A stretch of 64,000 nt of DNA from positions 1 through 64,000 of the forward strand of contig PLMQ01000055.1 in the NCBI GenBank assembly GCA_003142535.1, given 5' to 3'. Within the stretch, counting starts at the first letter, position 1. Every line of letters begins with the position of its first letter. This document shows positions 32,071 to 54,042 of the stretch, piece after piece. Below the pieces are notes generated by a model. The model was not told the DNA's origin. It searched no databases and worked only from the letters and a program-made list of their open reading frames with translations. The DNA comes from Syntrophaceae bacterium. Lineage in GTDB: Bacteria > Desulfobacterota > Syntrophia > Syntrophales > Smithellaceae. A program made the translations under genes and the position numbers.

Positions 32071-32224
32071 TAATAACGGGTATGGAACCCAAAACAAGCT
32101 TTAGAAACATTTCGCGAGCTCGCTGCGGGGTATTATACCCTATGCTTCGCGGGATTGTTCAACTTAACAATTCCGACCTGTGACCTTTAGGTTATGCTCT
32201 GCGCTTTCGGAATTGGAGTTTCAC
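32071..32224 (-). repeat. Structured repeat, locus a
   Basis: Read on the minus strand: GTGAAACTCC, then arm CCAATTCCGA, loop with AAGCGCAGA and the module GCATAACCTAAAGGTCACAGG, arm TCGGAATTG, then AACAATCCCGCGAAGC, GGGTATAATACCC and a 3' end ATACCCGTTATT. It is co-directional with the kinase-TusA gene upstream and sits 89 nt after its stop. Confidence 0.85.
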
Positions 32225-33971: not shown

Positions 33972-34148
33972 GTGAAACTCCAATTTCAAAAACGTAGTGC
34001 ATTGAAATTGGTTAGCTGAACAATCCCGCATAAGCGGTGGTCGTGAAACTCCAATTCCGAAAGCGAAGTCCGGCGGATGCCGGGCGAAGCGAATTGAAGT
34101 TTGTTAGTCGAATTATCCCGTACGAGCAGGGATATTATACCCGTGATT
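33972..34148 (+). repeat. Structured repeat, locus b, abutting tRNA-Sec
   Basis: Two units on the plus strand. Unit 1 has arms CCAATTTCAA / TTGAAATTGG around AAACGTAGTGCA, then AACAATCCCGC-ATAA-GCGG. Unit 2 starts with arm CCAATTCCGA but ends with TGAAGTTTG (arms not complementary) and carries a nested CCGGC-GGAT-GCCGG hairpin. The locus ends ATACCCGTGATT at 34148, directly at the 3' end of the minus-strand tRNA-Sec. Confidence 0.85.
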
Positions 34149-34149
34149 C

Positions 34150-34242
34150 AGGCCGGTTTCAGAATCGAACTGAACAGCAAATCTTATAAATTTGCCCGAC
34201 GGGTTTGAAGCCCGCGGCCGGCACCAGCCGACTAAACCGGTC
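34150..34242 (-). tRNA. selC: Selenocysteine tRNA (anticodon TCA), non-canonical acceptor branch
   Basis: On the minus strand: acceptor GACCGGTT / AACCGGCC (8 bp with one A-C mismatch), linker TA, 6-bp D stem GTCGGC/GCCGGC with the 4-nt loop TGGT, anticodon stem GCGGG/CCCGT with loop CTTCAAA (TCA), long variable arm GCAAAT/ATTTGC, T arm TCAG-TTCGATT-CTGA. The 6-bp D stem with tiny loop, the long extra arm and UCA are diagnostic of tRNA-Sec. The acceptor plus T stack counts 12 bp (8+4, or 9+3), not the usual 13. CCA is not encoded. It lies 21 nt past the yedE stop on the same strand. Exact ends are uncertain by 1-2 nt. Confidence 0.82.
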
Positions 34243-45091: not shown

Positions 45092-45410
45092 AATGAGTCC
45101 CAAATTTCAGAAACGAAGTGCGCTGAAATTTGATGGACGAATTATCCCGCGTAAGCGGTGGCAATGAGACTCCAATTCCGAAAGCGAAGCGTATAACCTA
45201 ACCACCTAAAGGTGGCAAGAGGTCACAGGTCGGAATTGGTAAGTCGAATTATCCCGCAAAGCGGCGGTTGTGAGACTCCAATTTCAAAAACGTAGTGCAT
45301 AACCTGAAGGTCACAAGTTGAAATTGGCAAGTTGTAATGAGACCCAAGCTTCAGAAACAAAGTGTACCGAAGCTTGCCGGACGAATTATCCCACGAAGCA
45401 GTGGGTGTGA
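45092..45410 (+). repeat. Structured repeat, locus c (four units)
   Basis: Four tandem units, each beginning (A/G)TGAGACYCC or close to it. Arms: unit 1 CAAATTTCAG/CTGAAATTTG; unit 2 CCAATTCCGA/TCGGAATTGG; unit 3 CCAATTTCAA/TTGAAATTGG; unit 4 CAAGCTTC/GAAGCTTG. Loops keep AA(A)CGAAGTG-like sequence and units 1, 2 and 4 continue CGAATTATCCC(GC) with a small GC hairpin. Unit 2 has a doubly nested insertion (ACCACCTAAAGGTGG inside AACCT/AGGT). It lies between a terminator and atpF'. Confidence 0.9.
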
Positions 45411-51417: not shown

Positions 51418-51686
51418 AATGAGACTCCAATTCCGAAAGCGAAGCGCATAACCTAAAGGTCACAGGTCGGAATTGGTAAGTCGTAATGAGACCAAAACTT
51501 CAGAAACAAAGTGTACTGAAGTTTGCAGGTCGAATTATCCCGCGTAAGCGGTGGTAGTGAGCCTCCAATTTCAAAAACGAAGCGAATAGAAGTTTGTTAG
51601 CCGAATTATCCCTTATAAGCAGGAAATATACCCGACAGCTTGTTGCGGAATCGGTTTCCAAAGCTTGCTTTGGTATTCCCGTGATT
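51418..51686 (+). repeat. Structured repeat, locus d (three units)
   Basis: Unit 1 arms CCAATTCCGA/TCGGAATTGG with the module GCATAACCTAAAGGTCACAGG in the loop; unit 2 arms AAACTTCAG/CTGAAGTTT around AAACAAAGTGTA; unit 3 CCAATTTC paired only imperfectly with GAAGTTTG. Then CGAATTATCCC, CTTGCTTTGG and the shared right end TTCCCGTGATT. It fills most of the 360-nt gap before the convergent gene at 51723. Confidence 0.88.
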
Positions 51687-53931: not shown

Positions 53932-54042
53932 AATCACGGGTATGAACCCCAAAGCAAGCTGCTGGGTATCATACCCTCCGCTGTGCGGGATTGTTCAACT
54001 ACCAATTCCCCTACACTTCGTTATGGAAATTGGGGTTTCACA
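53932..54042 (-). repeat. Structured repeat, locus e
   Basis: Minus strand: GTGAAACCCC, arms CCAATTTCC/GGGAATTGG (one G-U) around an AACGAAGTGTA loop, then GTTGAACAATCCCGC-ACA-GCGG, GGGTATGATACCC, CAGCTTGCTTTGGGG and right end CATACCCGTGATT. It follows the atoE terminator by about 18 nt in the same orientation. Confidence 0.85.

Follow-up and report, generated by a model that had tools for sequence, protein, structure and literature searches.

Covarying hairpin elements of the Smithellaceae that appear to behave like known mobile bacterial hairpins

Modular mosaic intergenic repeats include the BOX elements of streptococci and the NIME of Neisseria, which the elements described here resemble by description alone; by the same descriptive comparison, we know of no nested 18-nt units in BOX or NIME. 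REPs and BIMEs, together with TnpA-REP, constitute a system of high-copy extragenic hairpins that possess a short unpaired 5' tag (GTAG or CGTC) and, in some cases, a stem bulge, and that form unit mosaics, with REPs in alternating orientation in BIMEs and with copies of the repeat bordering the RAYT gene (PMC8266576, PMC3733652, PMC2817692). The 5' tag adjoining the palindrome and the bulge are features recognized by TnpA-REP (PMC8266576). IS200/IS605 elements and their non-autonomous derivatives carry hairpins near their ends, show no clear target duplication, and are preceded at the left end by a recurring 5' flank. In mitochondria, the yeast GC clusters (PMC4478555), the sponge RHE (PMC2800124), and the Allomyces double-hairpin elements (via PMC2800124) are described as mobile hairpins with tandem or merged units and with complementary arm differences between types.

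Here, we describe a family of hairpin elements found in a 64,000-nt stretch (positions 1 to 64,000 of contig PLMQ01000055.1, hereafter the window) of a Syntrophaceae bacterium genome. On our best reading, these elements work like REP or IS200/IS605 elements, yet fail REP membership. High copy number, extragenic location, the unpaired 5' tag, the stem bulge (present in some REPs), and mosaic composition are shared with REPs, but the tag is RTGA, the modules are arranged head to tail rather than alternating, and the 52-nt module includes a second hairpin, arms that covary around a conserved loop, and nested 18-nt units. The hairpins near the ends are shared with IS200/IS605, and the recurrent 5' flank in the genome of origin and the lack of a clear target duplication may be as well, whereas the absence of an internal transposase, the inconsistent presence of a Y1 gene, and the modular hairpin chains are not. 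Tandem or merged units and complementary arm differences between types are common to the mitochondrial elements and those described here. Unlike the former, however, the latter are bacterial and nest their 18-nt units in a fixed order, and their loops are conserved more than the arms, whereas in the sponge and yeast hairpins the opposite holds.

Modules of 52 nt were extracted by anchors that do not require pairing, which avoids circularity (n = 64); 63 were included in an alignment (A1), from which a covariance model of one module (R1) was built. The segment 45093-45410 (+) is one 318-bp copy comprising four hairpin modules, head to tail, with the arms CAAATTTCAG, CCAATTCCGA, CCAATTTCAA, and CAAGCTTC(AG), each facing its own complement, as the first-pass annotation of 45092-45410 had described. 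The ends of this copy were assigned by likeness to copies with empty sites; R1 matches it at 45094-45145, 45165-45252, 45271-45337, and 45338-45389, and its single-stranded DNA fold has z = -5.2. The flanking genes are, from a reading of the ORFs, presumably bactofilin-like on one side and atpF-like on the other. In the entire window, R1 detected 11 modules, and four further copies are present. The features are as follows.

45093..45410 (+): whole element; 5' end ATGA after the terminator-like T-run CTTTTTA, 3' end GTGA, then TT
45094..45138 (+): module 1; outer stem GTCC/GGAC, arms CAAATTTCAG/CTGAAATTTG, 3' bulge AT, loop AAACGAAGTGCG
45139..45158 (+): second hairpin of module 1, GAATTATCCCGC-gtaa-GCGG
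45165..45245 (+): module 2; outer stem GACT/AGTC, arms CCAATTCCGA/TCGGAATTGG
45194..45229 (+): loop insert of module 2; 36 nt, two nested 18-nt units, the inner one CCACCTAAAGGTGGCAAG at 45202-45219
45271..45333 (+): module 3; outer stem of the AACT type with a mismatch (GACT/AGTT), arms CCAATTTCAA/TTGAAATTGG
45300-45317 (+): loop insert of module 3, a single 18-nt unit TAACCTGAAGGTCACAAG
45338..45382 (+): module 4; arms CAAGCTTCAG/CCGAAGCTTG, one mismatch adjoining the loop
45390..45405 (+): second hairpin of module 4, CCCAC-gaagca-GTGGG, a compensatory variant of CCCGC/GCGGG
33972..34146 (+): second window copy; two modules, end ACCCGTGA, directly beside the tRNA-Sec gene at 34151-34242 (-)
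51419..51684 (+): third window copy; three modules and a terminal hairpin
53934..54041 (-): fourth window copy; R1 matches
32154..32223 (-): module of the fifth window copy with one 18-nt insert; the coordinates are those of the mapped part of the copy

Each module starts with an unpaired TGA preceded by A or G, followed by a variable 4-bp outer stem (GACC/GGTC, GTCC/GGAC, AACT/AGTT, or GACT/AGTC) that encloses an inner stem of about 10 bp, closed by a loop of 12 nt. The 3' side alone has a bulge, 2 nt long, which keeps its length while its letters vary. Among 123 hairpins with a perfect outer stem (a count that leaves out 46 further hairpins lacking one, and for which the outer letters were not anchored), 112 combine the absence of a 5' bulge with a 2-nt 3' bulge, and the tag, ATGA or GTGA, is present in 95 of the 99 commonest. 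Typically, a second hairpin, TTATCCCGC..GCGG, follows the module, modules chain head to tail within the element, and complete elements often close with a third hairpin, GGGTAT..ATACCC-GTGA. The first-pass annotation missed the covarying outer stem and considered both the loop and the downstream CGAATTATCCCGC..GCGG fixed. The loop varies (AA[AG]CRNAGYG..); it may form a 3-bp mini-stem and frequently carries inserts of 18 nt, and the downstream sequence is the second hairpin, in which the stem varies as well (CCCAC/GTGGG, CCCTC/GAGGG). Integron attC sites were rejected as a match given that an AAC..GTT core is not conserved and the outer stem varies freely among the four types listed above. Three composite elements (L254:15098-15264, L258:12399-12602, and L262:4422-4642) have a different 5' hairpin, GTGGAGCCCCCTCCGGCAGGAGCCGGAGG, fused to ordinary modules.

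The genome of origin (2.93 Mb), sampled by stretches and by model searches, contains 215 occurrences of CGAATTATCCC with at most one mismatch, compared with 19 for the reversed control. The R1 search identified at least 153 modules, and the modules listed collapse to at least 133 separate elements or places, and of 97 sampled copies approximately 90 lie between genes as judged by a rough gene call, the combination of high copy number and extragenic location that characterizes REPs. By the same rough call, the copies are antisense (33), sense (19), divergent (17), or convergent (11) relative to genes, with no clear preference of the kind observed in terminators or BIMEs. Replication-strand bias gave a weak sign only (strand clustering by contig, p = 0.017), and there was no GC-skew bias.

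The module was detected in 43 of the 51 genomes of the family, with 1 to over 120 matches per genome, and in 48 of the 149 genomes of the order, nearly all of these within the family of the Syntrophaceae bacterium itself; the named carriers are Syntrophaceae, Smithella, and Deltaproteobacteria MAGs. A Streptomyces match from a pattern scan (L048) lacked an R1 match and was discarded as chance. Three contigs from a viral collection carry copies between genes (L290:1396, L291:9893, and L292:11844); L292 has matches to a terminase and a major head protein, and the same module occurs in L291, directly after a stop codon. Phages may be vectors of the elements. Searches of plasmid and phage record collections with the element produced no match. 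Several elements of the genome of origin contain NN gaps (for example, L005:1498, L014:1491, and L051:7972), where the assembly broke and was joined inside repeats. Despite these gaps, an assembly artefact was rejected because the same modules and depth-2 nesting are found in independent genomes. Titles and abstracts on palindromic repeats of Smithella or Syntrophus contained no description of this hairpin family.

Filled and empty sites were identified by comparing related genomes of one genus. Two insertions are clean, with at most one ambiguous base (L254:15098-15264 against L258, and L258:12399-12602 against L254), and two look similar, with 13 and 24 unaligned bases kept in the empty genome (L262:4422-4642 against L261, and L259:7378-7613 against L258, respectively). 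The element L205:7215-7577 lies between two genes that are direct neighbours in L206, L207, and L208, and L198 carries a single module of 79 bp that L200 lacks. These comparisons prove presence and absence, not the direction or mechanism of change. No clear target duplication was observed at four empty sites. Upstream of 55 copies in the genome of origin, the flank reads TTTATT[TC], with T at -6 in 51 and at -2 in 52; this consensus is that of the genome of origin, and the empty sites are AT-rich and match it loosely. The sequences at the two ends of an element, GTGA.. at one and ..GTGA or ..GCGGGA at the other, do not form inverted repeats. With neither terminal inverted repeats nor a clear duplication at the four empty sites, the elements are unlike DDE transposons, and a MITE (a DDE transposon derivative) was rejected.

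Two insertions of other kinds were noted. One, of 99 bp (L261:481-581, genome G028), is absent from genome G027, has the palindromic ends TACCAA..TTGGTA and a 3-base TTA overlap, and looks like an ordinary MITE. The other, of 191 bp (L254:10597-10789, G027), GATTGTTGAAAA..TTTTCAATAGCCCC, is absent from G028 at a 4-base overlap and represents another dispersed repeat; a similar repeat, CTGTTGAAAAACGCTCAT, flanks the RAYT in L121.

Covariation in A1 is extensive: 90.5% of the cells are paired, compared to 76.9% after shuffling and 20-37% with the arms slid, 198 double-changed cells were counted against 66 in the shuffled control, and 14 of the 17 pairs show change on both sides. RNAalifold, run unaided, recovered nearly the same helix. 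The rows of A1 are related repeats, so the cells do not count as independent events; even so, given the slid controls and the variety of arm types, chance is untenable as an explanation. The compensatory change and structural constraint originally proposed are supported. The identity of the constrained molecule is a different matter. Among the 1510 arm cells of 151 distinct modules from all genomes, there were 26 G.T and 26 A.C mismatches (the outer-stem counts, 3 and 22, respectively, were partly fixed by the search pattern and were not used). In RNA stems, compensation usually proceeds through G-U, as in 78.5% of the two-step changes in rRNA (PMC8794818). Because G.T is no commoner than A.C in the arms, either it is DNA strands that are constrained or one arm serves as the template for the other, and RNA as the constrained molecule, which the first-pass annotation had allowed, is unsupported.

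For the first of these options, we propose, at about even confidence, that the hairpins belong to one family of mobile, non-autonomous elements, active in the form of folded single-stranded DNA and moved by a putative hairpin-recognising enzyme. This nuclease or transposase, probably of the HUH (Y1) kind, would recognise the folded strand, cut single-stranded DNA at T[CT]^RTGA, and move the element; it might be supplied in trans or by a phage. If the enzyme reads the fold, any arm sequence would work as long as the fold is kept. Under the TnpA-REP guide model, a GTGA tag would select TC (PMC8266576), and the flanks in the genome of origin come near this prediction, with T at -2 and T or C at -1. 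Against the proposal, no enzyme was found, PF01797 (Y1) proteins being undetected in 4 of the 15 repeat-rich genomes and Y1 counts not tracking copy number, and two loop inversions indicate that template switching also happens.

These inversions affect the whole loop between unchanged arms (L068:2053 and L081:873). Loops can also hold 18-nt mini-hairpin units, YAACCTRAAGGTCACAAG, and the insert lengths in 46 insert-bearing modules were 18 (19 cases), 36 (15), 54 (2), and 90 nt (1), along with a few other lengths. The units lie in tandem or within the tip of another unit (CCTRA^AGG). Sampled loci of the genome of origin yielded about 30 nests of depth 2-4, nearly all in the order TAACCT(..AAG) > TAACCT(..GCG) > CCACCT..AGGTGG > TACCCT..AGGGCA, with levels sometimes skipped and no reversed order seen among them; depth-2 nests occur in independent genomes, too (L041, L044, L196, and L231). 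One possible reason for the fixed order is that composite inserts are copied as a whole, instead of their units being added singly. More speculatively, and in our estimate improbable on balance, a recursive process would insert 18-nt units at the tips of DNA hairpins in a fixed order, building nested elements, the carriers of which would be spread by a new kind of hairpin-recognising enzyme, perhaps phage-supplied.

The second option, that replication template switching copies one arm onto the other so that compensatory changes require no selection on the hairpin, strikes us as a serious but unlikely account of the family. Template switching can create and maintain hairpins (PMC8794818), whole-loop inversion between unchanged arms is a known footprint of it, the near-equal G.T and A.C counts fit, and slippage could account for units growing at hairpin tips. 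Dispersal to new sites and the conserved RTGA tag are left unexplained, however, and arm copying would tend to erase the 2-nt bulge, which is kept while its letters change. Template switching may act alongside the mechanism of a mobile element, and, judging by the loop inversions, probably helps to keep the arms perfect.

Elements moved by a resident RAYT (TnpA-REP), that is, REP/BIME in the strict sense, would account for the high copy number, the extragenic location, and the tag adjoining a hairpin. The genome of origin encodes two RAYTs; the gene for one of them, on contig C57, has a copy of the element 29 bp away. The orthologs of this RAYT in relatives (L121, L122, and L143) are, however, flanked by TTAGGGACAGCGCCCTA / TAGGGCGCTGTCCCTAA palindromes, which are probably their cognate REP and distinct from the module family, and because the orthologs carry this different palindrome, the C57 RAYT was rejected as the partner; no cognate RAYT was found. 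Furthermore, the RTGA tag is neither GTAG nor CGTC, Y1 was undetected in the 4 repeat-rich genomes, including G026 (98% complete, 10 contigs), although divergent enzymes could be missed, and some repeat-free genomes encode several Y1 proteins. Y1 counts did not track element copy number (rho 0.16, p 0.25, with copy numbers as minimum values). This explanation appears decidedly unlikely. The second RAYT-like gene (L050:4134-4860, contig C1; 171 aa, NF047646 E 4.5e-15) has a palindrome of its own, AGAACAAGGGGTTGCAACCCC, and is flanked by the palindrome AGAACAAGGGGTTGCAACCCCTTGTTCT, which occurs there in several copies and is likely the REP of this gene.

A structured RNA family, comprising regulatory 3' ends or small RNAs under selection at the RNA level, could be suspected from the strong covariation, the intergenic location, and the terminator-like T-runs that precede some copies. 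It is a very improbable explanation considering that the arms show no wobble excess, orientation to genes is inconsistent by the rough gene call, the same site is filled in some related genomes and empty in others, and an Rfam search with the element produced no match; we do not read the hairpin family as an RNA gene family. The original statement that no family matches holds for Rfam and for the GTAG- and CGTC-tagged REP super-families (families from PMC3733652, compared by tag), and of the two outcomes that would have contradicted that annotation, a lack of covariation and membership in a known REP/BIME family, neither was obtained. Spread as RNA via reverse transcription, proposed for the Allomyces elements from the combination of double-hairpin anatomy and no target duplication (as cited in PMC2800124), is hardly credible here, since the arms show no wobble tolerance, PF00078 was undetected in 11 of the 15 repeat-rich genomes, the genome of origin among them, and reverse-transcriptase content did not track copy number (again minimum values), so that a reverse transcriptase was rejected as the partner. 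Accordingly, neither of the partners initially suggested, RAYT/TnpA-REP or reverse transcriptase, was substantiated.

No known family or enzyme appears to account for these hairpins, although they behave like known mobile bacterial hairpins. Strong covariation, commonly taken as proof of functional RNA, here arises in what appears to be mobile DNA, and near-equal G.T and A.C counts offer a simple means of distinguishing the two. Stepwise palindrome growth is evident from the 18-nt units nested at hairpin tips, and with both filled and empty sites available among related genomes, the mechanism can be tested. Relatives of Smithella, syntrophs of methanogenic degradation, carry the family in abundance, and phage-like contigs carry it as well.
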